NCBI RefSeq assembly: GCF_009905215.1
Contig: NZ_CP047593.1
Span: 1,430,900-1,494,899 of the forward strand
DNA: 64,000 nucleotides
Source: Tichowtungia aerotolerans
GTDB taxonomy: Bacteria > Verrucomicrobiota > Kiritimatiellia > Kiritimatiellales > Tichowtungiaceae
Direction of reading: 5' to 3'
Shown here: positions 16,563 through 45,518 of the stretch, one piece after another
Layout: each line of letters begins with the position of its first letter
Position numbering within the stretch: the stretch's first letter is position 1
Position numbers and translations under genes: made by a program
The notes under the pieces: model-generated
The model's database searches: none
Seen by the model: only the letters and a program-made list of their open reading frames with translations
What the model was told of the DNA's origin: nothing

Positions 16563-19244
16563 CTAGCGTTGGGTGTTATTCCTGTATGGATTTGAGGCGA
16601 AATAGAAGTGTCCGTCTTCTGCGCCGAACAGCAGGTCCGGAACTCCGTCGTTTTGCCAATAGACTACCGTTGGGCATGTGGTGTGACCCGTGTACTGTTT
16701 GGAAATAATGCATCCCATGTCTTTAAAGACCACCTTATCTTTTGATTGGGAAACATTTTTCAGGAAGTTGATGGTGCGACTGTTGGTTAACAGGTCCAGT
16801 TTCCCGTCCAGATCCCAGTCGACAATGACAAATTTTCTTCTTCCGCTTCCGCCGATATCTCTGGCGTTGATCTGCAGTGGAGCAACTGCATTGATATCTG
16901 TGGTTTCATCGGGTTTGGGATCGCCGTTCCAGTGAAATTTAGAAATACCCTGTATGTAGAAAATTCTCTTTGGCGGCAGCAGCGAGACCTTGTTGTCGAT
17001 GACCTTTCGTTCGTACATGGACAGGTACCCTTCGGTATCCAGCGCGATAAGATCCGTTAGACCGTCACCGGAAAAGTCTGCTATCTGAAGGCTGCTTCGC
17101 CATTGAGTGACAAACTCTTTTCCTTTCGGAGACCACCAGTTCCACGCAGGTTTCGGGGGAGCGCCCTGCCATTCAACTTCCACGGCTTTCGGCGCGGCAA
17201 GTTTCGGGGTGGTTTTGGTGCCGATGTTCTTGTACCAGGTAACGCTTCCCCAGATGTCATTCAGCAGGATATCCGGTAGGCCGTCCATATCCCAATCGGT
17301 GACGAGGGGGACGGTGTAGCCCCATTTGGCTTCGCAGGGGCCCTGAATGGATCCGTTGTATCCAGCTTCGATCCGGATGGGAATGTCGTTGGCAGCGAGC
17401 GGCTGGGGTACATTCCATTTCGGATTTGCTCCTCCGGACAGGTTTTCAATAAAGAGTATGCGGCCGTTGCTGTCTCCGCAAATGATATCGTCGTCTCCGT
17501 CGGCATCCCAGTCAACGCTGTTGGGGGTGGCGAGTACGCCGGCTTTCAGATTGGCTGCGTATTGTCTGATAGGCTGCGGAGGGAGGAAAGATGGGGTTCC
17601 GCGGAGGGATGTTCCCGTGTTTTCCAGCAGGCTGACTGTGCCGTCTTCTTCTCCGACAACCAGGTCGATATCGTCGTCTTGGTCCCAGTCGATTGCGGTG
17701 GTCCATACCATTTGACCAAAGATGGTGATGGCTTTTCCGTCGTATTTCAGGAGCCGCGATTCTGCGAATTTAATTTCATCGCCTTCGGAAATATTTTCGA
17801 AGTAATGGAGTTTATCGAGGAACTCTCCGCAGATGATGTCGTAGTCTCCGTCATGGTCCCAGTCCTGGTAACACGCGGTGGGCCATCCGTAAACATCGAT
17901 GGGGGTTCCATCGGAAAGCAGTTGCCCCATGTTTCTGTATTCCGGTTTTTCGGTGGTTCCGAAGTTCTTGATAAAGTAAATATACCCATGCTGTTCTCCG
18001 CCGGCCCAGGTTCCGTTGGAGCGATAGCCTTCTTCTCGTCGCATGTCGTCAACCATGGCAGAAATCAGGAGGTCTTCCGTGCCGTCGTTGTCCAGGTCAA
18101 TCAGGGTCCACTGCTGAAAGTGTTGCCAGGGAAAGTCGGGGGTGTAGTCTATTTTCTTCGGTTTCTTGAACAGGCTGTTTCGGAAGTCCGGGTATACACA
18201 TCCCGGAGTAGTCACGATACTTTGTCCGTTTTCATTGTGGATTTTGACGTTCTTGGCATTGTTTCCGATTCGGACGGGAGGGGTAAGGGCCGGTTTCCCG
18301 TTGTTTTCAAGCAGGTAGAGGCCGTTGTTGGGTTTGTCGTAGACTGCAACCAGCAGATCGTTGTCTCCATCTAGATCAAAATCCATTGGGAGCGGCCAGG
18401 CTCCGAGGCCGACACCGGCTGCGGTTTCAAGTTCGGGGTTGTTGTATTTAATAATTCGCTCCTGCGGTGCGGGCGGAAGCGGTTTGCTGTTGAGCGGTTT
18501 GCCGGTTTGGTAGCGTTTCAGAATGTTTTCTGGATTTGTGTCGATGGCGTGATCGTAGATTGCCACTTCATCCAGCATTCCCAAAAGGTATGGATTCTTT
18601 CCGGTGGGTTTTGCCATCTTTCCGATTGCGGCATGGTAGGTTGCCTGTCCGGGGTCAAACTGGAGGTTTTTCCATTTGGTCATTTCCTGGTCCTTCCGGA
18701 GAGTGCCATCGACGTATATCCTGGTGGATCTGTTTTGGAAGTCTGCAATGATGACGACGTGCTGCCAGGTATTGGCTTTGTGGAAAGGAACGGTGGCGCA
18801 GCTCCATGCTTCTTTCTTTTGGCTGCGCACTGCGGCGTAAAGCTGAAGGTAGTTCAGGTAAAAGTCCAGCAGTACGGTATCTTCGGAGTAGAGGGAGAGA
18901 ACTTTCTGGTGCTGCAATCCGGCGTTGTAAATCCAGAATTCCATGCTGAGTGCGTGGCAGCCTTTTAGTTTGGTGTGCAGGTCTGATCCCAGATCTATGT
19001 GTGCGCCAAGGCCGTTGAATGAGGCGGATTTGTTAGGGGGGTTGCCGTTGGTTTGCAGGTTTTCTTTCGGGATAACGCAGTTGACGTCAATGAATTCGGC
19101 ACTGCTGTCAGCTTGGGAATCAAAGGTGAGGTAGTAAATCGGGTTGTTGCCGGTGATTAATTCTTTGTATTCCGATGCGTGGGTTGGCGCAAGCAGGCCC
19201 AGCAGTGTTCCCGCAATAAGCAGGCTTCGTTGTTTGTGTTTCAT
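16563..19244 (-). CDS. Secreted LamG + FG-GAP/VCBS propeller protein (893 aa)
   Basis: A signal peptide (cleavage near THASEY, residue 24) precedes a LamG domain (about 35-245) and a long repeat region (270-893). Nine Asp-rich calcium-loop repeats such as DFDLDGDND, DWDHDGDYD, DWDADGDDD and DWDLDGKLD are spaced 57-95 residues apart, as in FG-GAP/VCBS beta-propellers. Conserved motifs shared with three other proteins in the window are IQGPCEAKWGY (633-643), TQWR (713-716) and GHTTCP (853-858). The region from 270 on is a close paralogue of the C-terminal half of the 20888 protein. The gene runs opposite to the rest of locus A, has AGGAGT before its ATG, and shares a promoter region with the oxidoreductase operon. 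Function is unknown: glycan binding or a propeller enzyme. Confidence 0.82.
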   Translation of the reverse strand: MKHKQRSLLIAGTLLGLLAPTHASEYKELITGNNPIYYLTFDSQADSSAEFIDVNCVIPKENLQTNGNPPNKSASFNGLGAHIDLGSDLHTKLKGCHALSMEFWIYNAGLQHQKVLSLYSEDTVLLDFYLNYLQLYAAVRSQKKEAWSCATVPFHKANTWQHVVIIADFQNRSTRIYVDGTLRKDQEMTKWKNLQFDPGQATYHAAIGKMAKPTGKNPYLLGMLDEVAIYDHAIDTNPENILKRYQTGKPLNSKPLPPAPQERIIKYNNPELETAAGVGLGAWPLPMDFDLDGDNDLLVAVYDKPNNGLYLLENNGKPALTPPVRIGNNAKNVKIHNENGQSIVTTPGCVYPDFRNSLFKKPKKIDYTPDFPWQHFQQWTLIDLDNDGTEDLLISAMVDDMRREEGYRSNGTWAGGEQHGYIYFIKNFGTTEKPEYRNMGQLLSDGTPIDVYGWPTACYQDWDHDGDYDIICGEFLDKLHYFENISEGDEIKFAESRLLKYDGKAITIFGQMVWTTAIDWDQDDDIDLVVGEEDGTVSLLENTGTSLRGTPSFLPPQPIRQYAANLKAGVLATPNSVDWDADGDDDIICGDSNGRILFIENLSGGANPKWNVPQPLAANDIPIRIEAGYNGSIQGPCEAKWGYTVPLVTDWDMDGLPDILLNDIWGSVTWYKNIGTKTTPKLAAPKAVEVEWQGAPPKPAWNWWSPKGKEFVTQWRSSLQIADFSGDGLTDLIALDTEGYLSMYERKVIDNKVSLLPPKRIFYIQGISKFHWNGDPKPDETTDINAVAPLQINARDIGGSGRRKFVIVDWDLDGKLDLLTNSRTINFLKNVSQSKDKVVFKDMGCIISKQYTGHTTCPTVVYWQNDGVPDLLFGAEDGHFYFASNPYRNNTQR

Positions 19245-19310
19245 GTCCTGACTCCTGTTTGTTGGTTGGTTCTAAATTTGTGGAGCGAACTGTAGCTGTA
19301 TCTGGGAATA

Positions 19311-19442: not shown

Positions 19443-19599
19443 GACAGTCTGTTTGTTTCGTATTTTATTTACAGCGGAAAAATTGCGCTTCGATTTTATT
19501 GCGAGATAGGCGTGATGGCTGAGTGCAGTGGGTGATTTCTGCTGCAGTGTGCCTGAGTTGAGGAGTGAGTAGACATTGTAAAAGGGAATTGTTGAAGTC

Positions 19600-20898
19600 A
19601 TGAAGTTTATTATTTTAGGAGCCGGATCTCGAGGGTCTGCATATGCAAGACACATTCTCGAAAACAAGGATCGTGCACGGGTGGTAGCTGTTGCTGAGCC
19701 CGATCCCGTCCGGCGGTCCAGTCTGGCAGACCTGCATGGGGTCGGTGAAGAAAATCGGTTTTCAGAATGGAAAGAGGTTGCAGAGAAAGACAGGTTTGCG
19801 GATGCCGTGGTGATTGCGGTTCAGGATGACATGCATCTGGAATCAACCCTGGCGTTCTTAAAAAAAGGATACCACGTCCTGTTGGAAAAACCATTGGCGC
19901 CGAGTGTTGAAGACTGTTGTCGAATCTATATGGCTGCGAAAGCTTCCGGGGTCCTGTTTGCGGTATGCCATGTGCTGAGGTATACCACGTATACTGCAAA
20001 GATGAAGACTCTTCTGGATCAAGGGGTTATTGGAGATATTGTTTCCATGCAGCATCTGGAGCCGGTCGGTTATTATCATCAGGCACACTCGTTTGTTCGC
20101 GGCAACTGGCGCAACGAAAAGATGTCTTCGCCGATGCTTCTTGCAAAAGCATGCCACGATCTGGACTGGATTCGATATATCATGGATTCGCGGTGCGAGA
20201 GCATAACTTCATTTGGCAATCTGAGACATTTCAAAATAGAAAATGCTCCTGAAAACTCTGCCGAGCGGTGTCTTGACTGTGCCTGTGAAACTGAATGCCC
20301 GTATTCTGCAAAAAAAATATATATCAAACGAGCTGAGGCGGGAGATTTAGACTGGCCTAACCGTACAATTACCAATGACCTGACGCTGGAGGGGGTGCGC
20401 TCAGCTATTGAGACAGGGCCTTACGGCCGCTGTGTCTACCGGTGTGACAATGACGTAGTGGATCATCAGGTTGTTAATATGTTGTTTGAAGACGGAAGGA
20501 CCGCTTCGTTTACGATGACTGCGTTCACCGATATGGTGGGCAGAAAAACGCGGGTTTTCGGGACGAAAGGGTGTATGGAGGGAGATCAGGATCACATTAA
20601 AATCCTGGATTTTCTGACAGACGAAGAGGTTGAAATTGAGACATCTCCCGAAGATTCAACGATTCTAGGAGGGCATGGCGGCGGCGATAAAGGACTGATT
20701 GATGCGTTTATTAATGCTGTGGAAACCGGCGATCGGAGCCAAATCATCTCTGGAGCGGAAGAAACCATCGAATCGCATATGATGGTGTTTGCCGCTGAAA
20801 GGAGTCGGAGGGAACGCGCGGTTGTAAATATGAGAGAATTTACTGCTGAGCACCTGGAATCTTCCTCCGTGAACGCAGGATGTAAGAGTGAGAAATGA
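19600..20898 (+). CDS. Gfo/Idh/MocA family NAD(P)-dependent oxidoreductase (432 aa)
   Basis: Cytoplasmic dehydrogenase of the glucose-fructose oxidoreductase / inositol dehydrogenase family. The Rossmann nucleotide motif is G7-A-G9-S-R-G12, and the family EKP motif is at residues 96-98 in VLLEKPLA. The C-terminal domain follows, with a Cys cluster CLDCACETECPYSAKK (about 226-241) that is unusual for a simple sugar dehydrogenase and could bind metal. It is the first gene of a five-gene operon with an aldolase, an esterase and a secreted FG-GAP protein, which suggests oxidation or epimerisation of an imported sugar. The substrate is unknown. Confidence 0.9.
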   Translation: MKFIILGAGSRGSAYARHILENKDRARVVAVAEPDPVRRSSLADLHGVGEENRFSEWKEVAEKDRFADAVVIAVQDDMHLESTLAFLKKGYHVLLEKPLAPSVEDCCRIYMAAKASGVLFAVCHVLRYTTYTAKMKTLLDQGVIGDIVSMQHLEPVGYYHQAHSFVRGNWRNEKMSSPMLLAKACHDLDWIRYIMDSRCESITSFGNLRHFKIENAPENSAERCLDCACETECPYSAKKIYIKRAEAGDLDWPNRTITNDLTLEGVRSAIETGPYGRCVYRCDNDVVDHQVVNMLFEDGRTASFTMTAFTDMVGRKTRVFGTKGCMEGDQDHIKILDFLTDEEVEIETSPEDSTILGGHGGGDKGLIDAFINAVETGDRSQIISGAEETIESHMMVFAAERSRRERAVVNMREFTAEHLESSSVNAGCKSEK

Positions 20899-23800: not shown

Positions 23801-25216
23801 GGGCACATCTACTATGTTGAAAATACTGGGTCCGATTTCTCGCCGGTATATGGTGCGGCCGAGAAGCTGCAGGCTGGCGGAGAAACGATTGATGTGTATG
23901 GAATGCCGACGGCCAGTTATTGCGATTGGGACAATGATGGAGATATCGACATCGTTACCGGAGAATTTCTGGATACATTTACCTATTTTGAGAATACAGG
24001 AACTCCGGCCGTCCATTCTTTTGCTGCAGGCCGATTGCTAAGCCATAACGGAGAAACCATTCATGCCGATGGCGAAATGCTCTGGACCACGGCTATCGAT
24101 TGGGACAAAGACGGTGATGTGGACTTGCTCGTCGGCGAAGAGAGCGGATTTATTGCCCTGATGGAAAATACCGGCCAGTTTGTTAATTCGACGCCGGTTT
24201 TTTTGCCGCCGACTTTCTTTCAGCAGAAACCGCATCAAGTAAAAATCGGTTCAATGGCAACTCCTTGCAGTTATGATTGGGATGCTGACGGGGACGAAGA
24301 CCTTATTTGCGGTGATGGCTTGGGGCGGATCTCTTTCATTGAAAACCTTGACGGGGGAAATCCTCCTGCCTGGAACAAACCGGTTGCGTTGGAAGCCGGC
24401 GGACAGGAAATACACATTCAGGCCGGCGACAACGGCTCGATTCAGGGGCCGTGCGAAGCCAAATGGGGATATACTGTTCCGGTTGTGGCCGATTGGGACC
24501 ATGACGGGCGTCAGGATATTGTTGCCAATGATGTGTGGGGCCGGGTGCATTGGTATCGCAATGTCGGTACGGCCGAGGCACCGGTGCTGGCCGCTGCGCA
24601 GAATATTACAGTCGATTGGACAAACGGAGTTGCGGTGAAACCGGACTGGATTTGGTGGGAGCCTCAGGACCGGCAGCTGGTTACGCAATGGCGTACAACA
24701 CCCTTCGTCTGTGATCTGAACGGTGACGGGTTGAATGATTTGGTCATGCTGGATCATGAGGCGTATCTCGCCTTCTATGAGCGGTATGATGCAGACGGTG
24801 AGTATAAGCTGAAAGCCCCTGAACGGATTTTCATGTCTGATGATCATCCGTGGTACCGATGGCAGGATAATGCCCCGGCACGAGTCGAAGTTGCGGGAGA
24901 CGAGCTGAAGTTGAATGAGCGGACGCTGGGTGCCAGCGGTCGGCGGAAGTTTGTATTGGTCGACTGGGATCTGGACGGGAGGCTGGATTTGCTCGTCAAC
25001 AGCGACAGCATTAATTTCTTCAAGAATGTTTCTGAAGAATCCGGACAGTTTCGTTTTAAGCACATGGGCAATGCGGTGACCGGCACATATGCAGGGCATA
25101 CCGATTGTCCCACGGTTGTCTATTGGCAGAACGACGGGATTCCAGACCTGCTGTTCGGGGCGGAAGACGGTTGTTTTTATCTGGCTCGCAATCCCTACCG
25201 GATGGCGTCTCAGTGA
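20888..25216 (+). CDS. Secreted protein: 3 LamG domains + FG-GAP/VCBS propeller (1442 aa)
   Basis: The GTG at 20888 follows GCAGGA with a 7-base spacer and overlaps the oxidoreductase stop by 11 bp; ATG 20903 is an alternative. After a signal peptide (cleavage near CFAEP) come two LamG domains (about 25-248 and 258-478) like those of the 11745 protein, an EF-hand-type loop DIDQDGWVTEKDF (near 490), a third LamG domain (about 555-780) and an Asp-rich propeller region (810-1442). Shared motifs are IQGPCEAKWGY (1185-1195), TQWR (1266-1269) and GHTDCP (1403-1408). From the third LamG on, it parallels the whole 893-residue protein encoded at 16563-19244. It looks like a fusion of modules that are separate genes elsewhere in the locus. 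Catalysis is unproven. Confidence 0.82.
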   Translation: MRNDGMKRLLAGLVALVCTFRCFAEPLFVANWDDGCRAAFSAGFSYPLSEDNLPTVSDAVAKSGCSLAFANSEYLSYSYDRNYSPDKGTFEVYLRPTQADLGGKYNLYSVVVSAENRLYLRREVHSANPTIQRLFVYYASAGVVSMLYSPWSDIRSGDLALDQWHHVAFTWDFSNGGTANQLALYIDGVRCDYETSVSAQAWGDAVSPESIEIGRYGQVVGSSVGGYLDALRISSSVVYQGSEFEVPGEFSLAVSPREMGSPVFISHYNEMLDAEYSFGDVVARTATSYPEIVQSETFNGQPCLDFTDPADTLSYGFPDNVSPEKGTFELFFKPERLASGEKGYFFSIIESYANRLYFRREADSSGREHLVVYYASDGEARALGTTWGAPDEFFDTNLWHHVALTWDFQSGSGSNSLAIFLDGERQAFADNISAGQWTVEPDEIEIGGYAGSGALCAVSYLANLRISDDVIYHGSSYDVPGGLFPTHLTADIDQDGWVTEKDFLFLNENYSCLLNLLDFPYMPAGRLNTTCMQDSDCFIFDELASSNDVGSITEYAACIVQDKPLAYYRFEGDFADTADKSGRKQQGAQTAVSSAAVLDRPELFSLTNSQTGDSVAGFNGTGATIGVQRSLTKKLAGASAISFETWFRNWDLEPQKMISLYIEGNIGFEVYLNNGILGVAGRSCPDDDWKNAVISYESTLKWHYLVAIADFEHSQIRIYLDGKVSTFEISGWTQQTYQPDSSGLTDTIGGRAFGTDYSFFGQMEDVAIYGHAIDERDGGLNILERFYLAGGKEVTDKKSLCLQADAERLLYNNPEGTFTVNLGAGYGPAPLPMDYDNDGDYDLLFSNRDVVHDGLYFANNPDGNVRMPVFDPPQYVGPMVAGAKVTYIDGVERLLAQNREYTDFRSSAFSTYNTIGYTYESGFDLDQMVQWVKLDFDHDGDNDLMISGGYDDMQRWLAYDSSGNWLGGKMHGHIYYVENTGSDFSPVYGAAEKLQAGGETIDVYGMPTASYCDWDNDGDIDIVTGEFLDTFTYFENTGTPAVHSFAAGRLLSHNGETIHADGEMLWTTAIDWDKDGDVDLLVGEESGFIALMENTGQFVNSTPVFLPPTFFQQKPHQVKIGSMATPCSYDWDADGDEDLICGDGLGRISFIENLDGGNPPAWNKPVALEAGGQEIHIQAGDNGSIQGPCEAKWGYTVPVVADWDHDGRQDIVANDVWGRVHWYRNVGTAEAPVLAAAQNITVDWTNGVAVKPDWIWWEPQDRQLVTQWRTTPFVCDLNGDGLNDLVMLDHEAYLAFYERYDADGEYKLKAPERIFMSDDHPWYRWQDNAPARVEVAGDELKLNERTLGASGRRKFVLVDWDLDGRLDLLVNSDSINFFKNVSEESGQFRFKHMGNAVTGTYAGHTDCPTVVYWQNDGIPDLLFGAEDGCFYLARNPYRMASQ

Positions 25217-25243
25217 AATTGGAATGAAAGGTAAAAGGTGTTG

Positions 25244-26152
25244 ATGAGTATGAAAGTTCCATTGAGTGGCATTGTTCCTCCGGTGGTTACTCCCTTGCTG
25301 AACAGGGATTCATTGGACGAGGAAGGTTTTGAAAAGCTGGTTGAACATATTCTGGCTGGCGGAGTTCACGGACTGTTTGTGCTTGGGACAACGGGGGAAG
25401 CTCCGTCCCTTGGGTATAACGTTCGAAGCGAGGTTGTTTCCCGCGCCTGCCGCCAGGTGAACAAAAGGGTTCCGGTGCTGGTTGGAATCACGGATACGGT
25501 CTATTCGGAATCTGTTGCTTTGGCTAAAAAAGCGGCCGATTGCGGAGCGGATGCAGTGGTTCTTGCTCCACCTTATTATTTCTCTGCGGGGCAGCCGGAA
25601 TTGATTGAGTATGTTCAACACATGGTTGAAGACCTGCCGCTGCCGCTGTTCCTGTATAACATGCCGGGCTGCACAAAAATCCATATGGATCCGGAGACCG
25701 TCCGGCATTTGGCGCAGCTGGATAAGGTGGCCGGCTTGAAGGACAGCTCCGGAAACATGGTATATTTCCATAAGTGCAGAGAGCTTCTGAAAGATAATGA
25801 CGATTTCAGATTCCTTGTGGGGCCGGAAGAACTGTTGGCCGAGAGTGTTCTGCTTGGGGGACACGGGGGCGTCTGTGGCGGTGCAAACATGTTCCCGCAA
25901 CTTTATGTTGATCTGTATAACGCCGCAAAAAGCGGTGATTTGGCAACAACTCGCCGGTTGCATCAAAAGGTGATCGAGATCAGCAATACGGTTTACCGTG
26001 TCGGGAAGCACGGTTCGAGTTTTCTGAAGAGCGTTAAAACGGTCCTGAACCTGATGGGCATCTGTAATGATTTTGTTTCTGAGCCGTTTCATCGTTTCCG
26101 AACTTCGGAAAGGGACATTATTCAAAAATTATTGGATTCATTGGAAGTATAA
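25244..26152 (+). CDS. DapA/NanA-family class I aldolase or dehydratase (302 aa)
   Basis: TIM-barrel enzyme of the dihydrodipicolinate synthase / N-acetylneuraminate lyase superfamily, which forms a Schiff base with a 2-keto acid. The GTTGE substrate loop is at 48-52, Tyr138 in FLYNMPG and the Schiff-base Lys166 in AGLKDSSG are present. In a glycan locus, a 2-keto-3-deoxy-sugar-acid aldolase or a sialic-acid-lyase-like role is more likely than lysine synthesis; that is inference from context. ATG 25244 is chosen with AAAAGG upstream; GTG 25238 and ATG 25250 are in frame. It is 27 bp after the long FG-GAP gene, in the same operon. Confidence 0.9.
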   Translation: MSMKVPLSGIVPPVVTPLLNRDSLDEEGFEKLVEHILAGGVHGLFVLGTTGEAPSLGYNVRSEVVSRACRQVNKRVPVLVGITDTVYSESVALAKKAADCGADAVVLAPPYYFSAGQPELIEYVQHMVEDLPLPLFLYNMPGCTKIHMDPETVRHLAQLDKVAGLKDSSGNMVYFHKCRELLKDNDDFRFLVGPEELLAESVLLGGHGGVCGGANMFPQLYVDLYNAAKSGDLATTRRLHQKVIEISNTVYRVGKHGSSFLKSVKTVLNLMGICNDFVSEPFHRFRTSERDIIQKLLDSLEV

Positions 26153-27016: not shown

Positions 27017-27874
27017 GTGAAAAAATCGATGATGTATTTTATGCTGGGCGCAATTATGTTTGCTGCGCAAGCTGCAGGCTTTGTTTTTGTGCTGGGCGAT
27101 GCGTCGATTGGTTTGGAATCGCGTGAGGGGATGGTCTATATCCCGGCCGGCACAGCCTATATTGCGGATCTGGACTTTGGCACCTATTCCTGTGCTTCGC
27201 CAGGGTTTTATATGGATGCATCCGAAATAACCAAAGGGCAGTGGGATGTTGTTTATGAGTGGGCAGTTTCCAACGGGTATGCCTTCAGTCATGTCGGCGC
27301 CGGGAAAGGGGATGGCCACCCCGTGCATACGATCAGTTGGTATGACAGCGTCAAATGGTGTAATGCCCGCAGTGAGATGGAAGGACTGACTCCCTGTTAT
27401 TGGGTTAACGATGCGGTTTACAGAACCGGAACGGAAGATCCGAGTGTCGACATGAACGTGATTGGATATCGGCTGCCTACCGGGGAGGAATGGGAGTATG
27501 CCGCTCGTGGTGGGATCTCTGAACGCTTTTCATTTGGGGACCAAATAGATGCGGGAAAAGCGAACTGTGCGCTGAACGGAAGTCTGTTTGAGTATGACAC
27601 GTCTGGGTATGCGCAGCTTACTTTTCATCCTGTGCATGCAGATGGTTCGCTGCCATATACCAGCCCCGCCGGAAGCTACCCGCCAAATGGTTTCGGGCTG
27701 TACGACATGACCGGAAATGTCTGGGAGTGGTGTAATGGAGGAACGAACGGGGCCAGAGAGATCAGAGGGGGGAGTTGGATGAATGATGCCTCGTTTGCTC
27801 GAAACGGTCTTCAGGCATTCGGGGATCCGGAGTTTTCATATTATCATTTAGGTTTCCGTTGTGTTTTGCATTAA
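27017..27874 (+). CDS. Exported SUMF1/FGE-fold protein lacking the FGE cysteines (285 aa)
   Basis: A signal-like N-terminus (MKKSMMYFMLGAIMFAAQAAG) precedes an FGE-sulfatase-type domain: MVYIPAGTAYI, DASEITKGQWDVV, VHTISWYDSVKWCN, GYRLPTGEEWEYAARGG, YDMTGNVWEW and REIRGGSWMND, ending HLGFRC. In true formylglycine-generating enzymes the segment after RGGSW carries two active-site Cys; here it reads MNDASFARNG without Cys. It is therefore unlikely to mature the nearby sulfatases and may be a binding or structural member of the fold. Start is a GTG with a weak ribosome binding site. Last gene of the operon. Confidence 0.82.
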   Translation: MKKSMMYFMLGAIMFAAQAAGFVFVLGDASIGLESREGMVYIPAGTAYIADLDFGTYSCASPGFYMDASEITKGQWDVVYEWAVSNGYAFSHVGAGKGDGHPVHTISWYDSVKWCNARSEMEGLTPCYWVNDAVYRTGTEDPSVDMNVIGYRLPTGEEWEYAARGGISERFSFGDQIDAGKANCALNGSLFEYDTSGYAQLTFHPVHADGSLPYTSPAGSYPPNGFGLYDMTGNVWEWCNGGTNGAREIRGGSWMNDASFARNGLQAFGDPEFSYYHLGFRCVLH

Positions 27875-31080: not shown

Positions 31081-31108
31081 ACCGCACCGTTTTTTCGCGA
31101 GGTTGTCC

Positions 31109-33921: not shown

Positions 33922-36816
33922 ATGAAAAAATGTATTCTATTTTCGCTACTGTATTTGGCCACGCTCTGCCGGGCGGGTCAGCTCACGCTGCCGGCGGTGT
34001 TTTCGGACCACATGGTCCTTCAGCGCGACCTGCCGGTGACGGTCTGGGGAACTGCGGATGCCGGGGCGACCATAAGAGTTGAGTTTGGCGGGCAGACAAA
34101 AACAGCTGTTACCGATTCTTCCAACCATTGGAAAGTGATTCTCGATCCGATGCCCGCATCTTCCGAACCTCGGAAACTGATCATTTCTTCATCCAATAAT
34201 TCGGTGATCCAATATTCTGATGTCCTCGTCGGCGAAGTCTGGCTCTGTTCCGGCCAGTCCAATATGCACTGGCCGATGGAGGGGCGGGAAAAAACCGAAT
34301 CGACGGAGGCCGCGATTGCTGCCGCGAATTATCCGCAAATCCGGCTCTTCCGCACGCCGTCGAAGTTTGCAGCTCAACCGCAGGAAAACGTGAACGCATC
34401 CTGGCAGCTTTGTTCGCCGGAGTCGGCGAGAACCTTTTCTGCCGTGGCTTATTATTTCGGCAGAAAGCTGAAGCAGGATTTAAATGTTCCGGTCGGTCTT
34501 CTCCAGTGCGCACTGGGTGCGACCCCGATTGTTGCATGGACCGCTCCGGAAGGGTTTGCGGGCCGTGAGACTCTCAAGTCCTTTTATGAAACCGCAACCC
34601 GTTTAGATGGTGTCGAAAAGATAGACCGGTTGACACCATCGGCGCTGTTTAACGCCATGGTTTATCCGCACATCCCGTTCACAATTCGCGGTGCCATCTG
34701 GTATCAGGGTGAAGCGGATTACCGCGATGGAAAGCTCTACGTCGACAAAACCCGCGCGCTGTTGGACGGCTGGCGCAAGCGGTGGGGAACGGATTTCCCA
34801 TTCTATTTTGTGCAGGTTACGCCGTTTGCCTATCCGAATGACAATCCCGAACTACTGCCGGAGTTCTGGGAAGCGCAGGCGCAGATCGTGCAGGACATTC
34901 CCGGAACCGGCATGGCGGTTGTCAGCGACTGCACGACGCTGGATAATATTCATCCGCCACAGAAAGAGCCGCCGGGAATCCGCCTTGCCCTGTTGGCCGA
35001 GGCCGAAACCTACGGTATGGATGTTGTCAGCACCGGGCCGGTTTTCCAATCCTTGCAAAAATCCGGTCATACGCTGCGGGTTCATTTCGAGTCCGCCGTC
35101 GGCTTGACGACCCGCGACGGCAATCCGCCGGACTGGTTTGAGGTCGCCGGGCGCGATGGGGTTTTTCATAAGGCCGTCGCGCAGGTTGACGGTGAGTCGG
35201 TATTGGTACAGTCCGAGGATGCTCCAGATCCAGTCGCCGTTCGTTTTGCATGGCATCAGCTGGCGGTTCCGAATCTGATGAATGGCGCCGGACTGCCGAC
35301 CGGCGCCTTCCGTGCTGAGTTGCCGCGTCCAAATCTACTGGTTTTGCTGAGTGATGATCAGCGGCCGGATACGCTGGGCTGTTATGATTCCAGCACCCCG
35401 ATCCGGACGCCGAACCTCGACCGGCTGGCCGATCAGGGAATCCGCTTCGAAAACGGATTTGCCTCCAGCCCGATCTGTGTGGTTTCGCGGGCATCGATTC
35501 TGACCGGTCGCTATGAATGCAACATGAAGGTGCATCAATTTCATATCCCGATTCCCGATGAAATTTTTGCGGACAGTTATCCGGCTCATTTGAAAGAAGC
35601 TGGATATTTCATCGGTGCGCTGGGCAAGTACGGGGTCGGTATTTCTTCTTTGGTTACCAATACATTCGATGTGTTCGAGGCGCAGGCCGGGCAGGGGCCG
35701 CAGTTCCGGGATTATCAGGGTCGCAAGATGCATGATGCGGAGTGGCTGACGGTAAAAACCGAAGAGTTTCTGAATCAGGTTCCGGAGGGGCAACCGTTCT
35801 GTCTGCAGGTGAATTATAAGGAGCCGCACGGATCATCCTGTCCGGCGCCCGAAGATGATCATCTGCTGGATCACTATCGCTTTCCGCTTCGTCCCACAGA
35901 TGATCCGGAATCGTTCGCCAAGCTGCCGCCGTATGTTCAGACCGGGCTCGGCGGATGGTGCTATCGCAATGAGTTCAATAATGAAGAGGGCGATAATAAT
36001 CCGTATCAGCGAGATTATTTTGAAAAAGTGATGAGCGTGGATCGGTCCATCGGCCGGATTCGATATATTCTGGAAGAGCGCGGACTGGCGGAGAATACGG
36101 TGATTGTTTTTCTCTCCGACCATGGAACTCATCTCGGTGAAAAGCAACTGTACGGGAAATGGACGCCGTATGATCAGAGTCTGCGTATTCCGTTTATTGT
36201 CTACGACCCGCGGCCCGCAGCTCAAAACGGAAGCGTTCATTCGGAAATGGTGCTGAATATTGATGTGGCTCCGACGCTACTCGACCTCGCCGGAGTTACG
36301 GTTCCCGAAACCATGGACGGACTGAGCATGAAGGCGCTTATCGATGGCGAAGCCGTTACGTGGCGCGATCATTTCTTTTTTGAACACTATACGTCTCCGG
36401 CGGCGGCTCCGCGCTATATCCCGCGCAGCCTCGGGATGCGGACGGAAACCGGAAAATATCTTCAGTGGATCGACCCGGATCCGGTGATCGAGGAGTTCTA
36501 CAACCTCGGCCAAGACCCGCAGGAATCCAACAATCTACTAACCAGTCCGGAGGCGCAGGATCAGATTAACGCGGCAAGAAAAGATCTGAAGGCGTGGGTT
36601 CAGAACAATCCGCCTGATTTTGAATACGACCCGTATGGCGAGATTCCGCAGTACGGATGCAAAGACATTGACTGGGAGCATTTTCAAGAAATCCGGCCCG
36701 AAGAATATGGGCGAATTAAGGCAGAAGTTGAGCGCCTTGGGGTAACCTGGGAGCAGGCTGTCGATGATTGGGAGATTCGCTATGAAATCTGCGCCAACGT
36801 CGGGTACTGGTATTGA
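33922..36816 (+). CDS. Sialate O-acetylesterase-like + sulfatase fusion (964 aa)
   Basis: One exported polypeptide (signal peptide ending near CRAG) with two enzyme domains. Residues about 20-470 are an SGNH sialate O-acetylesterase-like domain: Ser113 in CSGQSNMHW, WYQGEAD near 260 and His344 in NIHPPQK. Residues 475-964 are a type I sulfatase: DDQ metal site (478-480), active-site segment C519-V-V-S-R in SPICVVSRASILTGRY, GALGKYG, and FLSDHGTHLGEKQLYGKW. The usual sulfatase motif is CxPxR or CxAxR, so Val at the third position is unusual. The sulfatase has no signal peptide of its own; it joins directly after the esterase end (GLPTGAFRAELPRPNLLVLL). Acting on a glycan that is both O-acylated and sulfated is the obvious inference. 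Confidence 0.9.
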   Translation: MKKCILFSLLYLATLCRAGQLTLPAVFSDHMVLQRDLPVTVWGTADAGATIRVEFGGQTKTAVTDSSNHWKVILDPMPASSEPRKLIISSSNNSVIQYSDVLVGEVWLCSGQSNMHWPMEGREKTESTEAAIAAANYPQIRLFRTPSKFAAQPQENVNASWQLCSPESARTFSAVAYYFGRKLKQDLNVPVGLLQCALGATPIVAWTAPEGFAGRETLKSFYETATRLDGVEKIDRLTPSALFNAMVYPHIPFTIRGAIWYQGEADYRDGKLYVDKTRALLDGWRKRWGTDFPFYFVQVTPFAYPNDNPELLPEFWEAQAQIVQDIPGTGMAVVSDCTTLDNIHPPQKEPPGIRLALLAEAETYGMDVVSTGPVFQSLQKSGHTLRVHFESAVGLTTRDGNPPDWFEVAGRDGVFHKAVAQVDGESVLVQSEDAPDPVAVRFAWHQLAVPNLMNGAGLPTGAFRAELPRPNLLVLLSDDQRPDTLGCYDSSTPIRTPNLDRLADQGIRFENGFASSPICVVSRASILTGRYECNMKVHQFHIPIPDEIFADSYPAHLKEAGYFIGALGKYGVGISSLVTNTFDVFEAQAGQGPQFRDYQGRKMHDAEWLTVKTEEFLNQVPEGQPFCLQVNYKEPHGSSCPAPEDDHLLDHYRFPLRPTDDPESFAKLPPYVQTGLGGWCYRNEFNNEEGDNNPYQRDYFEKVMSVDRSIGRIRYILEERGLAENTVIVFLSDHGTHLGEKQLYGKWTPYDQSLRIPFIVYDPRPAAQNGSVHSEMVLNIDVAPTLLDLAGVTVPETMDGLSMKALIDGEAVTWRDHFFFEHYTSPAAAPRYIPRSLGMRTETGKYLQWIDPDPVIEEFYNLGQDPQESNNLLTSPEAQDQINAARKDLKAWVQNNPPDFEYDPYGEIPQYGCKDIDWEHFQEIRPEEYGRIKAEVERLGVTWEQAVDDWEIRYEICANVGYWY

Positions 36817-36841
36817 TGATTTAACTGTAAGGAGAGACGTG

Positions 36842-38398
36842 ATGAACGGAGTGAAACGAAGAGATTTTCTGGCGGGCTGCAGTGCGGGAATGCTGGCTCC
36901 GTTTGTCGCGAAAGCCGCCGGAGCAGGCCGTCAAAAAACAAACCTGCTGTTTATTTTTACCGATCAGCAGGCGTTTGACATGATCGGGTCTGTTAATTCC
37001 CAGGTGCATACCCCCCATCTGGATGCTTTGGCGAACCGCGGTGTGCGCTTCGAACACGCCATCTCCAATTTTCCGGTTTGTACGCCGTATCGCGGCATGC
37101 TTTTTTCAGGCCAGCACCCGCTTGTGAATGGAACCTTTGCAAATGATGTTCCGCTGCTGCCGTGCCCCGGCAAGCGGTTTGGTCATGTGCTGACCGATGG
37201 TGGATATGATGTGGCCTATATCGGGAAATGGCATTTGTACGGCGGAAAAACCCGTGATGCAGCGGTGCCGCCGGGGCCGAACCGTCAGGGTTTCGACGGC
37301 GTCTTTCTCTCCAATAACATCCACGTCGATTTCCGGCCGGATGCCTGTTACTACTGGAATGATGCCGGGGAAAAGGTTTTCTTCAAAGACATCTATCCCG
37401 ATCAGCCGTGGGAGCTGGAGGCCCAGACACGGCAGGTTGAAGAGTGGTTTGATCAGCGCGAAAAGAAGGATCCGTTTGCCCTGTTTGTCTCGTGGCATCC
37501 GCCGCACGACTTCCGGGGGGATTGCAGCGATGAACTTCCGGGCCATCAGCGAAATTATGATGTCGATGAGCTGGATCCGAAGCTGCTGGCTCCGTACGAC
37601 GGACAGGAAATCAGCCTGCGCCCCGGTTCTTCGTTCGAAGGAAAAATGAATGACTGCAAGCATCAGCAGTATCGAAACTATATGGCGATGGTGACGGCGT
37701 GCGACGCAGCGGTCGGGCGGCTGGTCGATAAGCTGAAAGAGCAGGGGCTTTACGAAAATACACTGATTGTTTTCACCTCGGACCACGGCGATATGCTGGG
37801 CTCCCACGGAGCCAGATTCCCGAAGCCGTATCCGCAGAATTATGCGCTGAAAGTTCCGCTGATTATGCACTGTCCGAACCGGCTGCTTACGGGGCGCGTC
37901 AGTGAACTGCCGATCGGGGTCATGGACCTGATGCCGACCATTCTTGGCATGCTGGGCCTGTCGGTTCCCGATGTGGTTCAGGGGAAAGATTTTTCGCGGG
38001 CGATCCTGACGGGGGATGACTTTGCGTCAACGAGCCAGCCGATTTTCAACTGCGGCGGATGGCGGGGCGTTTATACGAAAGAGTGGACGTATGCGCGCGG
38101 AGTTGACGGCGCGAAAGTGGTCGGCGGAGTGGAGATCAACCTGCTGTACAACCATGCCGAAGACCCGGGACAGTTGAACAACCTTTTCGGTGATCCGCGC
38201 TATGCGCAGGTTCAGGCGGAAATGGAAAAGATGACGGTGCAGTGGCTGGAGTATTTTGAAGACGAGGAATACACCGGAGTGGACTTTGAGCGGGTCGAAA
38301 AAGAGACCGGGATTTCCTGGAAGATGAATTATACGCACCGCCCCATTGATCTGCTGAAAAAGGTTTGCATGGATTCCCGACCTCAAAGAGCCGACTGA
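36842..38398 (+). CDS. Tat-exported type I sulfatase (518 aa)
   Basis: ATG 36842 follows AAGGAGAG. The N-terminus carries a twin-arginine signal (KRRDFLAGCSAGMLAPFVA). The sulfatase domain has FTDQQAFDMIG at the metal site, the canonical formylglycine motif C80-T-P-Y-R in FPVCTPYRGMLFSGQ, YIGKWHLYG, and TSDHGDMLGSHG. Cys80 must be converted to formylglycine for activity. Export by Tat implies folding, and possibly maturation, in the cytoplasm. It lies 25 bp after the esterase-sulfatase gene in the same operon. The sulfated substrate is unknown. Confidence 0.93.
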   Translation: MNGVKRRDFLAGCSAGMLAPFVAKAAGAGRQKTNLLFIFTDQQAFDMIGSVNSQVHTPHLDALANRGVRFEHAISNFPVCTPYRGMLFSGQHPLVNGTFANDVPLLPCPGKRFGHVLTDGGYDVAYIGKWHLYGGKTRDAAVPPGPNRQGFDGVFLSNNIHVDFRPDACYYWNDAGEKVFFKDIYPDQPWELEAQTRQVEEWFDQREKKDPFALFVSWHPPHDFRGDCSDELPGHQRNYDVDELDPKLLAPYDGQEISLRPGSSFEGKMNDCKHQQYRNYMAMVTACDAAVGRLVDKLKEQGLYENTLIVFTSDHGDMLGSHGARFPKPYPQNYALKVPLIMHCPNRLLTGRVSELPIGVMDLMPTILGMLGLSVPDVVQGKDFSRAILTGDDFASTSQPIFNCGGWRGVYTKEWTYARGVDGAKVVGGVEINLLYNHAEDPGQLNNLFGDPRYAQVQAEMEKMTVQWLEYFEDEEYTGVDFERVEKETGISWKMNYTHRPIDLLKKVCMDSRPQRAD

Positions 38399-38560: not shown

Positions 38561-41461
38561 ATGAAAAAACAAATAGGTTTGGTGTTGATTGCGGCAGCAT
38601 GTGCGGCAGTTGCAACGACCTGGAATCAGGATGTCGACATCGGCGCAAAATGGAGTGAGGCGTCCAGCTGGAACACCGGTGTTCCTCCCACGGTTTCGGA
38701 TCTGGCTTTGTTTGATCTGGCGCAGGCCAATACCTATGATGTGGATGTGGATACGTCTGCGATCACCCGCCTGCAGCAGGTGTCGCAGCCGCACACGTTC
38801 AGTGGAAATGGATCGATCAACATCACCATTTCGCCGGCCTCGCATTTCCAGAACTGTATGTACAACACGCTGAGCGGCGGAACCGTGACCTACCATGTTG
38901 ATGTTTCGGTCAATACGCTGACGGCATATTACGCGCAAATGAATAACAACAATGGCGGCACCACCATTTTCAACGGGTCCTTCACGGTCAGTTCCGGGTC
39001 ATTGCTGAATGCCAGAGGCGGCACGCATGTTTTCAATGGCGATTTGAATTTGGTTGGAACGATGCGGTTGGATGCCGGTTCCGTCATTATCTCCGGAACA
39101 GGAAACACGCTGATTTCAGGTGATTACATCAGCACAGCCGGTCCGGGCAGTGAGCTGTACCTGAACCGCTCCGGGGCTTATACGTTGAGTGATCTGGCGA
39201 CCGGCTATTTGCGGATTGAAAGAACCAGGGTCTACTTTGGAGCGGACCAGGCGGTTGTGGACGGAACAGACGTGAAAATATATCAGGTTTCTGCAGATGC
39301 CGCGCTGATTTCCAACGGGGACTATGATCAGAACTTCGGCGTTTTATATATGTTCGGCACCAGCGGGCTGGATGCGCAGATGGATATGAATAACAGCGAC
39401 TGTGTCTGGACCTTTGAGGACTCCTCCGGAACGACATGGACGCATGATCTGGTCATTTCCAATGTCGGGAAGAACACGGAGATTCGCTTTGCAATGGATG
39501 GTGGCACCGGTTTGACGGATGAGCAGATCGGGCAGATTACGCTGAACGGAGTCGCGCTGACAGAAGCGGATGTGTTTGTGGAGGACGGTTATCTGTATCT
39601 CTGCAAAAGCGAAATGCCTGTGGAACAGAAAGGGTCGACGGAACCGGTATATGTCGGCTATTACCGTGGCAGCGCCATGGAGCAGGGCATCTATCAGTTT
39701 ACAGACCTGACCGATCCGTTGGGGACGGCAGCGCGGGTCGGCGAATGGCCGTTCCCGAATCCGACCTGGCAGAAGATCGGATTTGATGGCGATCAGTATT
39801 ATGTGCTGAACCGCGGTACGAGTTTCGGCGGTCCGGGGCTGTCGCAATATGATGGGGATACGACGCTCACCGAGATCAGCGGCAGTGACGATTTTGCGGA
39901 CTGGAATGGAGTTGGAGCCTGCAACGGTGTTTGGTACGGCCTCTACACCGGAAGTGGTTTGAATGGTTCAGGGCTTTATATGTTCATGGACGAGACTGAT
40001 CCGGAAGGAACGGCTGTGCAGCTGTTCAGTGGACAGAGCTTTTCTTCCAATGTTTGGAACGATGTCGCATTCGACGGCGAGCGCTACCTGTTTGTTCAGC
40101 CGGCTTCCGGCGGTGATCCGGGCATTTATGAATACGATCCCGATGCGGACTCGTTCACGAAAATCAGTGGGTCGGAAACCTACGCCGATTGGCAGGGGCT
40201 GGCGGTTTTCGATTCCGACATCGCGCCGCTGCGGAACAAAAAAGCCTACGTGCTTCTGTTCGGCGGGCAGTCCAATGCGCTGGGCTGGGGCTATCGCCAG
40301 TACCTGCTCGACACCGGAAATCCGCTCGCCTGGCCGCAGGCGGATATCGATATGCTTCATGGGTTGAATCTGGTTGTGCCTCAGGACACGCTGGTTCCTC
40401 TGCAGTCCGGAACCGCTAATATTGTGGTTAAGCCGCTGCCGAACCATTATCCGGATCTGACCGTAGCGCCGATCAGCCGCTTTGCGGCCGAACTCAGTTT
40501 TGCCCGCAGTGTTCGGGACCAGCTTTCTCTTCCGGACATGCGGCTCGGAATCATAAAATATGCAATTGGCGGGACGACCCTGTATGAGACCAGCGACTGG
40601 TGGCCGGACGGCACCGCCGACCGTTCGGCGGACGGAACCCGCTACCAGAATTTCCAGAAGACGGTCTGGAAAGGACTTGCCGCGATGAAAAACAAATATC
40701 CGACCCACTCGGTTGAGATTCTGGGAATGGGCTGGGTACAGGGAGAGTCCGATGCCATCGAAGGGCAGGGCGAAAATTATGAAGCCAACCTGACGCGGTT
40801 CATCGCTGATGTGCGGGCGACCTTCGGCGTCGCAGACCTGCCGTTTGTGCTGTCCAAATTGTCCAGCAATCAGCTGGAAGGCGCGCCGCAGAACGAACTG
40901 GACCAGTGGCCGATTGTCACCAACGCCCAGGCGCTTGTTGCGGCCGCCGATCCTTATGTGGTGGCGACGGATACCGAGGGCACCAACTATGCGGTTTCCG
41001 TTGGGTACTCTGAAGGGCGCTACCATTATATTACCCCGGCGCTGCTGCAGATCGGATATGACCTGGCTGATGCGCTGATTTCGATTTGCGGCGTTGACTC
41101 GGATAACGACGACTTGCTCGATGAATGGGAAAACAGTTATGCGCCGGGTACGGCCGGTCTGGGGAACACGCCGGACGCCGATTATGACGGTGACGGATTC
41201 ACGGATCAGGAGGAATTTCAGGTTGGGACCGATCCGACCGATTCAGATGATTTCCTGAAACTGTCGGCGGTTTCTTCAGCCGGTGTGAGCTGGCCGGCTC
41301 AGGGCGGTGTAAGCTACCGGGTGTATCAGTCCACAAATCTTCTATCGTGGACGGCGGCGGCGGGGCCGCTGCTGTTTCAGGGCATGACGAATGCGGTTGT
41401 TGGTTTTTCGAATTTTATTCAGACTAATCCGGTCGGATTTTTTTGTTTGACTGCGGAGTGA
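38561..41461 (+). CDS. Secreted repeat protein fused to an SGNH esterase domain (966 aa)
   Basis: A signal peptide (MKKQIGLVLIAAACAAVA) precedes a beta-repeat region (20-345) that is paralogous to the whole 45629 protein (both have IGAKWSE/VGAKWSE, QANTYDVDVDTS and QPHTF[SN]G). A segment with two repeats of the form IYQF/LYMF...DPxGTA (about 365-545) suggests a kelch-like module. An SGNH carbohydrate esterase domain follows (about 555-840): Ser571 in LFGGQSNALGWG, GMGWVQGESDA near 725 and His822 in RYHYITP. A TSP3-type calcium segment (DSDNDDLLDEW, DADYDGDGFTDQEE) and a C-terminal beta domain end it. It is likely a surface-exposed or secreted deacetylase. Confidence 0.85.
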   Translation: MKKQIGLVLIAAACAAVATTWNQDVDIGAKWSEASSWNTGVPPTVSDLALFDLAQANTYDVDVDTSAITRLQQVSQPHTFSGNGSINITISPASHFQNCMYNTLSGGTVTYHVDVSVNTLTAYYAQMNNNNGGTTIFNGSFTVSSGSLLNARGGTHVFNGDLNLVGTMRLDAGSVIISGTGNTLISGDYISTAGPGSELYLNRSGAYTLSDLATGYLRIERTRVYFGADQAVVDGTDVKIYQVSADAALISNGDYDQNFGVLYMFGTSGLDAQMDMNNSDCVWTFEDSSGTTWTHDLVISNVGKNTEIRFAMDGGTGLTDEQIGQITLNGVALTEADVFVEDGYLYLCKSEMPVEQKGSTEPVYVGYYRGSAMEQGIYQFTDLTDPLGTAARVGEWPFPNPTWQKIGFDGDQYYVLNRGTSFGGPGLSQYDGDTTLTEISGSDDFADWNGVGACNGVWYGLYTGSGLNGSGLYMFMDETDPEGTAVQLFSGQSFSSNVWNDVAFDGERYLFVQPASGGDPGIYEYDPDADSFTKISGSETYADWQGLAVFDSDIAPLRNKKAYVLLFGGQSNALGWGYRQYLLDTGNPLAWPQADIDMLHGLNLVVPQDTLVPLQSGTANIVVKPLPNHYPDLTVAPISRFAAELSFARSVRDQLSLPDMRLGIIKYAIGGTTLYETSDWWPDGTADRSADGTRYQNFQKTVWKGLAAMKNKYPTHSVEILGMGWVQGESDAIEGQGENYEANLTRFIADVRATFGVADLPFVLSKLSSNQLEGAPQNELDQWPIVTNAQALVAAADPYVVATDTEGTNYAVSVGYSEGRYHYITPALLQIGYDLADALISICGVDSDNDDLLDEWENSYAPGTAGLGNTPDADYDGDGFTDQEEFQVGTDPTDSDDFLKLSAVSSAGVSWPAQGGVSYRVYQSTNLLSWTAAAGPLLFQGMTNAVVGFSNFIQTNPVGFFCLTAE

Positions 41462-44400: not shown

Positions 44401-45518
44401 CGAATACGGTTGATTTTGCGCCGGTCGAATTGCTGATGCAGCAGGGCGGACAGCTGGCAACCGGGGATTCCGTTACTCCGGATGCGGTTGACTGGGATAA
44501 TGACGGAGACCTGGACCTGATTGCCGGGAATGTCTGCGGCCACATTAACTATTTCGAAAACATCGGCAGCCGGACCAATCCTGTATTTGCCGGAATGGTC
44601 GAATTGCAGAATGATCTGGGTGATTCCATCCATATTACTCAGAAGGGTGAGACGCCGATTCAGGGCCCGGCCGAAACGATGTGGGGCTATCTTTCCGCTC
44701 AGGCCGCAGATGTAGACGGCGACACCGATCTGGACGTGATCATTAATGATTCGCTGGGCCGTCTGCGCTGGATTGAAAACATCGGAACCCGATCTGTGCC
44801 GCAGCTGTCCCACGAATTTATTGATTTTACGGTGGGTGGGATTCCTTTGCTGACTCCGTGGCGCAATCGCCCGGGTGTGATAGATCTCGATAACGACGGC
44901 CTGCTCGATTTCTTTGTTCTGGATGATAACGGATCTCTGGTGCGCTATGAGCAGTCAGCATCCGGCGGCGGTTCTGAGTTGGCCGGGAAGACGGTTGTTC
45001 CGAACAGTGAAGGTGGAACCATTTGGATTAATCCGGTTATATCAGGTGGCGGAAGAGGGCGCAGTCAGATCGATGCAGGGGATTTTGACGGCGACGGAGA
45101 TGTGGATTTGATGGTGGGTCGTCCGCGCGACCAGACCGGACTGAACATACTCTACTGTGAGAATGTCGGTAGTCCGGCATCCCCTGTCTTTTCAGTTGAA
45201 AGTTTATCCGCTCGAGGTGTGGAGTTTGTGGAGTGGACCGGCTCTGCCGGGCACGAAGAGTGGCACAGCGGCTGTCCGGAGATGGTGGACTGGAACGGGG
45301 ACGGCGCTATGGATCTGCTGGTCGGCGTGGAGTCCGGCCGGTTCTCTTTGTACATGCAAGACTATTTTACCGGCGGGGCCGGGTTCCCGGCAGTTGAGCT
45401 GCTTTCCATTGAAAAGCGGGTTATGGACCGGACGTGGCAGATTATGATGGATGACTCCCGGCTGATTCTGCAGGGACTTTTATGGCAGAACGTTCCGCTG
45501 CAGGGTCCGGAGCTGTAA
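41472..45518 (+). CDS. Secreted protein: 2 LamG domains + FG-GAP/VCBS propeller (1348 aa)
   Basis: The ATG lies 10 bp after the previous stop, with GAGG eight bases upstream. A hydrophobic N-terminus (AVCAIIFMLQVPFG) can act as a signal. Two LamG domains (about 36-235 and 237-435) match the stand-alone 30394 protein. The remainder (445-1348) matches the 31109 protein: a CBM-like sandwich, a DFARFF domain, and a propeller from about 756 with DADGDGDWD, DWDGDGDND, DFDNDGSPD and similar loops. Shared motifs are IQGPAETMWGY (from 1063), TPWR (1128-1131) and GHEEWHSGCP (from 1260). It is thus the fused equivalent of two adjacent genes at the start of the operon. Confidence 0.82.
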   Translation: MDSIKKIFFGESGAVCAIIFMLQVPFGEPPAVPPAVGDWPLMGSLDDASGSLPLTAYSDSVPVNADSSFVSDGMACNGTSLVALPELSESQGFTVCGWINASNLETNGFTSTAPHTIFRLYNSTGGTSQFAVRALDATLNGYHSPPAENIWPETPLATDQWTFIAAVCDGESYTFYQNDLPSYEFPIVSSNVFDRLIIGALRADGYRPFNGKIRRFKLFDTALDEATVHAVYTDEKVAKIGDWPLLGSLTNRAGILTLTAYDEGSVIDPSISLESDGMVMDGVGLLALPVLAESQGFTVSGWVKPSRLDDGWSTDAPHTVFRMYNSADSTEQSTLRILDGDLNGYHTPPGANIWLNSPAVSNDWNFVALSCDGDSYTFYQDGLAPQVVPITSSNEYDRLMIGAADASGSRPVFGKMRQLKLYDGALDEAAVREIRRLEKPAGLNLSGNLLTSGSFENTTIEELDATWNFSPTNMWRVDDRQTVDGGQSLAVTAGDSSSFASIRLPVSGDAGEVVFGGWVSVKGSERDRNALVRMTCLAEPAGAPNTTFFVADEPDYSAVSKEYRPDTPPTYFEHRFSVPVDYKSLRLSLAVDTDVGDVYFDRLFVAKTEAFQSNWDVEVQTNTAPNEWRVAAAEYRIAAQASAADRDIFWAEVDFARFFRIYNERDPLDRSSVQVWAVGNGQAERVDAVSDYALPTLESHYPHNGLVRWRGRDWAESYEIYFSPMRADGTATVPGPVMLGAGELLNYAANTIAPAWGSWPGYKFDVKDADGDGDWDLYCGSSDEGFFICRNIGSNASPLFAPRTRLLSTDQAPGSAPNSVWLDWDGDGDNDRIEGVRVSLGTYVDGDYLNLNFNQNSGSAMAADAQVVDEGGTQIKLEDATWYRLGGGDFDNDGSPDIVAGTAMGTLDLLLNRGTDSGKAVVEHVQVPFDLYSSEPYESGDMGLKPVVLDWDGDGDDDIVFTAWQGFFWLLLNNGTANTVDFAPVELLMQQGGQLATGDSVTPDAVDWDNDGDLDLIAGNVCGHINYFENIGSRTNPVFAGMVELQNDLGDSIHITQKGETPIQGPAETMWGYLSAQAADVDGDTDLDVIINDSLGRLRWIENIGTRSVPQLSHEFIDFTVGGIPLLTPWRNRPGVIDLDNDGLLDFFVLDDNGSLVRYEQSASGGGSELAGKTVVPNSEGGTIWINPVISGGGRGRSQIDAGDFDGDGDVDLMVGRPRDQTGLNILYCENVGSPASPVFSVESLSARGVEFVEWTGSAGHEEWHSGCPEMVDWNGDGAMDLLVGVESGRFSLYMQDYFTGGAGFPAVELLSIEKRVMDRTWQIMMDDSRLILQGLLWQNVPLQGPEL

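Follow-up and report, generated by a model that had tools for sequence, protein, structure and literature searches.

We propose that four proteins encoded in a window of 64,000 nucleotides from Tichowtungia aerotolerans belong to an undescribed secreted family of VCBS/FG-GAP propellers, and that these are most likely glycan-cleaving enzymes (a probability of roughly 60%). The family itself, its conservation, the register of its residues, the five-bladed ring and the clustering of its genes are computed results; from them we infer catalysis, an acidic substrate, the roles of individual residues and the order of the pathway. We know of no family member with a measured activity.

The four open reading frames named in the first-pass annotation were confirmed at their positions (Table 1), the 893-residue one being on the minus strand. 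P0003 has 931 residues when read from 31103; a start at the ATG of 31109 gives 929. The only domains above the Pfam cut-off in these proteins are FG-GAP_3, FG-GAP and LamG, and FG-GAP_3 (PF13517) scores 78-112 bits in all four against a cut-off of 26.9. Their description as LamG/FG-GAP proteins therefore stands for FG-GAP throughout and fails for LamG in P0003, where Pfam finds none. On sequence grounds, LamG is an accessory module, as the minimal family member lacks it and consists of a signal peptide and a propeller of ~620 residues (~650 aa in total). Proteins P0001 and P0003 share 32% identity over 370 aa (E 8e-31) in a homologous FG-GAP propeller; since this propeller is common to all four proteins, their shared motifs are not due to chance. 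A search with NCBIfam profiles gave zero matches to the four proteins, and a PDB sequence search gave no useful relative and none that is an enzyme.

Table 1. Features of the propeller proteins and their neighbours (positions in the window unless a locus is given)
Feature	Position	Strand	Basis
SSF sodium:solute symporter, recurrent family neighbour	13645..15318	+	
P0001, LamG + FG-GAP double propeller, secreted, 893 aa	16563..19244	-	ORF, Pfam, model
P0001 C-terminal five-bladed ring, residues 551-888, all motif residues	16581..17594	-	model; homology with P0003 half
P0001 E876, strand B end, blade 10	16617..16619	-	conservation
P0001 GHTTCP (H854, P858), blade 10 entry	16671..16688	-	alignment, blade register
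P0001 GSGR (G799-R802), blade 9 entry	16839..16850	-	alignment, blade register
P0001 D736, strand B end, blade 8	17037..17039	-	conservation
P0001 TQWR (T713-R716), blade 8 entry	17097..17108	-	alignment, blade register
P0001 IQGPCEAKWGY (I633-Y643), blade 7 entry	17316..17348	-	alignment, blade register
P0001 N-terminal propeller half, residues 264-550, five blade units	17595..18455	-	model, conservation
Gfo/Idh/MocA oxidoreductase, overlaps P0002 start	19600..20898	+	
P0002, three LamG + double propeller, 1442 aa	20888..25216	+	ORF, Pfam
P0002 C-terminal five-bladed ring	24194..25201	+	homology to modelled rings
P0002 IQGPCEAKWGY	24440..24472	+	motif search
P0002 TQWR	24683..24694	+	motif search
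P0002 GHTDCP	25094..25111	+	motif search
DHDPS-family aldolase, starts 21 bases after P0002 (locus A)	25238..26152	+	
FGE-sulfatase (sulfatase-modifying-factor-like) domain protein	27017..27874	+	
P0003, N-terminal non-LamG module + propeller	31103..33898	+	ORF, Pfam
P0003 C-terminal five-bladed ring, modelled alone	32795..33742	+	model, fold match
P0003 IQGPAETMWGY	33044..33076	+	motif search
P0003 TPWR	33239..33250	+	motif search
P0003 HVGCP, conserved H here	33650..33664	+	alignments
SASA esterase + sulfatase fusion, one ORF	33922..36816	+	
Sulfatase	36764..38398	+	
SASA esterase, long N-terminal part	38561..41461	+	
P0004, two LamG + P0003-like module + propeller, 1348 aa	41472..45518	+	ORF, Pfam
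P0004 C-terminal five-bladed ring	44409..45368	+	homology to modelled rings
P0004 IQGPAETMWGY	44658..44690	+	motif search
P0004 TPWR	44853..44864	+	motif search
P0004 HSGCP	45264..45278	+	motif search, alignment
BNR_2 fusions, N-terminal	L070, L073		
BNR_2 fusions, C-terminal	L012, L023, L025, L026, L027, L028, L078, L083		
Stand-alone BNR_2 beside propeller	L071:10584-11690		

Three motifs had been reported for the four proteins. The first, IQGPxExxWGY, is kept by all of them, starting at I633 (P0001), I1185 (P0002), I648 (P0003) and I1063 (P0004). The second, T[PQ]WR, is likewise present in all four, at a spacing of 63-79 residues after the first. The third, given as G-H...C-P, holds in its H and P and not in its register or its C: the alignments give H-x3-P, the conserved H of P0003 and P0004 is the second one (WHVGCP, WHSGCP) and not that of GHEQW or GHEEW, and the C is missing in many members (HSTGP, HNTGP, HTCSP). 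Conserved residues absent from the earlier account include R802 in [S/G]GR, E876 and D736 (P0001 numbering).

Conservation was calculated over 39 sequences from at least six phyla with 21-51% identity to the P0001 core. Residues Q634, G635, E638, R716, G801, R802 and H854 are invariant in all 39; exceptions at W641, G642, Y643, W715, P858 and E876 are limited to one or two sequences. When the calcium loops recognised by a script pattern are left out, 21 of the 23 columns conserved at 90% or more fall in the C-terminal half, and all the polar ones are among these 21; the N-terminal half of P0001 (264-550) has few conserved residues besides the calcium ones.

The model of the P0001 core (pLDDT 93.1, pTM 0.93) contains ten four-stranded units, the tenth of which is apparently completed by an N-terminal strand, according to our own reading of the strand pairing. 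The C-terminal half of P0003 was modelled alone (pLDDT 90.1, pTM 0.91), and this model is matched over its whole extent by the five-bladed rings of GH43 and GH62 (Z up to 18.4, rows spanning residues 3-316; for 4mlg, 240 residues aligned at 2.9 A). Because these rings match end to end, the half is taken to be a closed five-bladed ring, and since it folds so by itself, a single ten-bladed ring is less likely. The best Foldseek matches are mostly non-enzymatic propellers; those to DDB1, KICSTOR and CRTAC1 have low TM-scores and were set aside as general propeller resemblance alone.

A blade-registered table was compiled with the help of the models. The Dx[DN]xDG calcium loop sits between strands A and B, and its positions are common to the blades. 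Residues Y643, R716 and R802 (offset -7 before the loop) and H854 (-8) are blade-specific, and mark the start of the innermost strand in four consecutive blades, in the same register. Given this register before strand A in a closed ring, the four residues are predicted to face one axial pocket; register and fold match together would place them around a single axial opening. In the model, E876 and D736 follow strand B, and in propellers the loops after strand B lie on the face of the strand A entry. The first-pass annotation had considered that the motif residues might be scattered in a predicted structure, or serve only blade packing. In the models every one of them lies in one five-bladed ring and in the same register, and packing does not explain blade-specific residues when the calcium-loop consensus recurs in all blades. 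An origin of the motifs by chance or from the repeat consensus is ruled out by the same table.

We compared the family with known propeller systems. In GH43, GH62 and GH32, the catalytic residues sit at the axial pocket. Their closed five-bladed ring corresponds to the C-terminal half model over its whole length (Z about 15-18.4); however, identity is only 4-14%, and the blades of our family carry Dx[DN]xDG calcium loops. GH profiles from Pfam and NCBIfam gave zero matches to the four proteins at E 0.1. The catalytic Asp/Asp/Glu set of these enzymes has no counterpart, there being no conserved acid at the first-blade entry and Arg/Arg/His later on. GH43 membership was thus rejected, as the fold agrees whereas profile and residues do not.

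PVL/PLL-type lectins have repeated sites between blades. The VCBS/FG-GAP propellers comprise the PVL and PLL lectins, integrin alpha, AUDH and RGL11 (PMC8023676). Our family resembles them in its FG-GAP_3 repeats above the Pfam cut-off and in the Dx[DN]xDG loops between strands A and B, and differs in having two halves per chain and blade-specific invariant axial residues; the named members show no sequence match to it beyond the repeat. The presence of lectins in this group (PMC8023676) raises the alternative of a non-catalytic lectin or surface glycan-binding protein, which would capture the ligand for sulfatases and transporters in the manner of PVL/PLL-type FG-GAP lectins. PLL/PHL lectins are among the Foldseek matches of the C-terminal half, several members carry LamG modules, binding proteins are frequent in SusCD loci, and residues invariant across the family could equally make a binding site. 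Yet the invariant site is single, axial and non-repeated, unlike those of PVL/PLL, and its carboxylates, arginines and histidine persist down to 21% identity, where binders usually drift. Moreover, the secreted candidates of locus L088 in the seed search are a propeller and BNR_2 only, so something there must cut. We consider a pure binder unlikely, although it is the chief rival of the enzyme reading.

Several lyase families are propellers, and PL11 is a calcium-rich one acting on an acidic polysaccharide, with a single eight-bladed ring. The PL11 rhamnogalacturonan lyases share with our family the calcium-rich propeller and the VCBS supercluster (PMC8023676), but P0001 has ten units and the C-terminal half is predicted as a five-bladed ring. 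No Pfam match to the PL11 profile was found in the four proteins at E 0.1, which is compatible with distant kinship. A polysaccharide lyase would use arginine to neutralise the carboxylate of a uronic acid and His/Tyr to abstract the C5 proton, followed by beta-elimination. The Tyr/His/Arg constellation and the placement of PL11 in the same supercluster (PMC8023676) favour this mechanism; against it, Pfam PL profiles have zero matches in the four proteins at E 0.1, and no GH88, GH105 or KduI/KduD was identified among the recurrent neighbour clusters as far as these were annotated individually. Of the families of an unsaturated-uronate pathway, this leaves the DHDPS-type aldolase, whose role could be that of a KDG aldolase. 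Lyase activity appears improbable and ranks behind the pure binder. The first-pass annotation had considered an undescribed family of glycan-active propeller enzymes possible, with lyases as the model; the family, its conservation, its ring and its clustering lend this partial support, the lyase part finds none, and catalysis itself is a proposal.

The remaining comparison is with GH33 sialidases. Likeness lies in the proposed logic, with arginines holding a carboxylate and Tyr/Glu chemistry, and in the company kept by the family, members of which are fused to the sialidase-superfamily domain BNR_2 and occur alongside an SSF symporter and an aldolase of the DHDPS/NAL superfamily. The propeller lineage, blade number and motifs are different, and the family has neither Asp-box nor sequence similarity to GH33. 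Pfam gave no match to a BNR or sialidase profile in the four proteins, BNR_2 occurring only as a partner domain in other members.

A profile scan of species genomes identified the family in Bacteroidota (Algoriphagus, Saprospiraceae, Flavobacteriaceae, Bacteroidales and Tidjanibacter), Planctomycetota, Verrucomicrobiota, Acidobacteriota, Hydrogenedentes and Lentisphaerae. Its distribution in the host phylum is patchy (32 of 289 genomes drawn), and T. aerotolerans, whose genome is a single contig of 3.88 Mb, has 13 paralogs, P0001-P0004 among them. A BNR_2 domain is joined to ten of the propellers, C-terminally in eight and N-terminally in two, a hint that propeller and BNR_2 domain share a substrate. 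The fused or adjacent BNR_2 subfamily carries a fixed HAST motif, matches sialidase weakly, and by our own reading appears to have His at the position of the first sialidase Arg; judged from its sequence, it may be another undescribed enzyme. In the open-access literature, we found no paper linking FG-GAP/VCBS proteins to polysaccharide cleavage in such clusters. Altogether, these data support an undescribed, widespread propeller family with an enzyme-like predicted pocket.

Sulfatases and esterases, mentioned in the first-pass annotation, lie at 33922..36816, 36764..38398 and 38561..41461. Fusions like the SASA-sulfatase protein seem to be present near other paralogs (L002, L003). Outside the propeller loci, the window encodes a Peptidase_C14 caspase-domain protein with a CsgG domain (62225-63835). 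We searched the neighbours of 70 loci with a propeller match, a few of which are more distant FG-GAP proteins. Recurrent neighbours are sulfatases (25), DHDPS-family proteins (24), SSF symporters (23) and BNR_2 proteins (16), and the Bacteroidota members sit in SusCD loci (L013, L018, L020, L024). Among the 32 loci of the host phylum, which were fetched irrespective of neighbours, 13 have a DHDPS gene. In the host genome, DHDPS genes occur at six of nine propeller loci, and of its 14 DHDPS genes, 6 are no more than 10 kb away from a propeller (p 0.004 by circular shift). A further figure, DHDPS within 15 kb in 14 of 16 genomes, was discarded together with its P value as biased, the genomes having been picked after the loci were seen. 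Sulfatase neighbours were dropped as host-genome evidence, 138 sulfatase matches in the genome making them uninformative. Three further observations concern these loci: a DUF3748/PD40 propeller protein stands beside the family in six (L020:11851-13344, L013:18597-20024, L015, L085-L087), proteins of ~1030 aa with zero Pfam matches stand beside propeller paralogs (L002:7018-10107, L007:11485-14604), and IU_nuc_hydro (nucleoside-hydrolase-like) genes occur in two unrelated loci (L007:17857-18810, L024:11877-12950).

The genome context supports glycan catabolism, although gene clusters indicate a shared pathway and not a reaction. A non-glycosidic sugar enzyme, namely one that eliminates or isomerises oxidised or free sugars, is conceivable in that the aldos-2-ulose dehydratase AUDH is a VCBS-type propeller enzyme (PMC8023676) and a Gfo/Idh oxidoreductase gene overlaps the start of P0002. 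Nevertheless, Gfo/Idh adjoins the family in just 2 of the 70 loci, and the secretion signals and fused LamG and BNR_2 domains favour a polymer or glycan substrate, so we regard this option as very improbable.

Thus, glycan cleavage remains the preferred reading, and the propellers are probably glycosidases for an acidic sugar. The core would consist of two propeller halves in one chain; the N-terminal one varies, as do LamG and any other modules, and these parts would serve in binding or support. The central pocket of the C-terminal half would be lined by Q634, E638, W641 and Y643 (blade 7), W715, R716 and D736 (blade 8), R802 (blade 9), and H854 and E876 (blade 10). The carboxylate of the acidic sugar may be held by the two arginines, and its glycosidic bond may be cut by acid/base and nucleophile chemistry for which E638 and E876 are the candidates, together with Y643 or H854. 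Sulfatases and esterases would have cleared the chain before this cut is made. Once freed, the sugar acid would enter through the SSF symporter, and the DHDPS-type aldolase would then break it down to pyruvate and an aldose.

The neighbouring aldolases and sugar enzymes bear on the identity of this acid. The DapA motif is YNVPSRTG; in most clustered DHDPS proteins that are readable at the site it is replaced by YNMPxxTK or YNFPELTG, and since most thus lack the DapA arginine, they are probably catabolic aldolases. The aldolase next to P0002, which has YNMPGCTK without this arginine, is on its sequence probably catabolic too. A FucI-like isomerase (weak Fucose_iso_C match) occurs in eight loci and full FucI in three; in L102, a FucI follows shortly after the DHDPS gene that belongs to paralog locus L007. 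The isomerase-like proteins form a family of ~530 aa that takes the place of FucI (L071:15380-16975, L020:1195-2799 and six more loci) and receives no name from NCBIfam. Seven loci contain an FGGY kinase; of these kinases, four exceed the cut-off for ribulokinase and three that for pentulose kinase, and their L-fuculokinase matches, where listed, are far below cut-off. In several loci the propeller is accompanied by an SSF symporter, a DHDPS-type aldolase of the non-DapA kind, an isomerase for fucose or D-arabinose, and a pentulose kinase. FucI does not tell L-fucose from D-arabinose. An oxidative fucose or rhamnose pathway was set aside as a less likely reason for the DHDPS proteins, as no recurrent dehydratase or lactonase was identified among the neighbour clusters. 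Cleavage of Kdo to pyruvate and D-arabinose fits the aldolase, D-arabinose isomerase and pentulose kinase set, which is present in a minority of loci. In the case of Kdo, import and cleavage to pyruvate and D-arabinose would be followed by conversion to D-ribulose and D-ribulose 5-phosphate. We tentatively suggest, with considerable doubt, that the family may be a new class of propeller glycosidases whose product, released from glycans, is a 3-deoxy-ulosonic acid and most specifically Kdo. In the literature searched, we came across no account of a symporter-aldolase-isomerase-kinase cluster with a propeller.

Because their annotation goes no further than FG-GAP/VCBS repeat or LamG, family members escape counts of CAZymes. 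The recurrent symporter-aldolase-isomerase-kinase set makes the question of the substrate directly testable, and the pocket residues for mutation are now named. If the family is catalytic, sulfatase-rich gene clusters of Kiritimatiellota, Verrucomicrobiota, Planctomycetota and Bacteroidota in which few or no glycosidases were recognised would gain a depolymerising or trimming activity.
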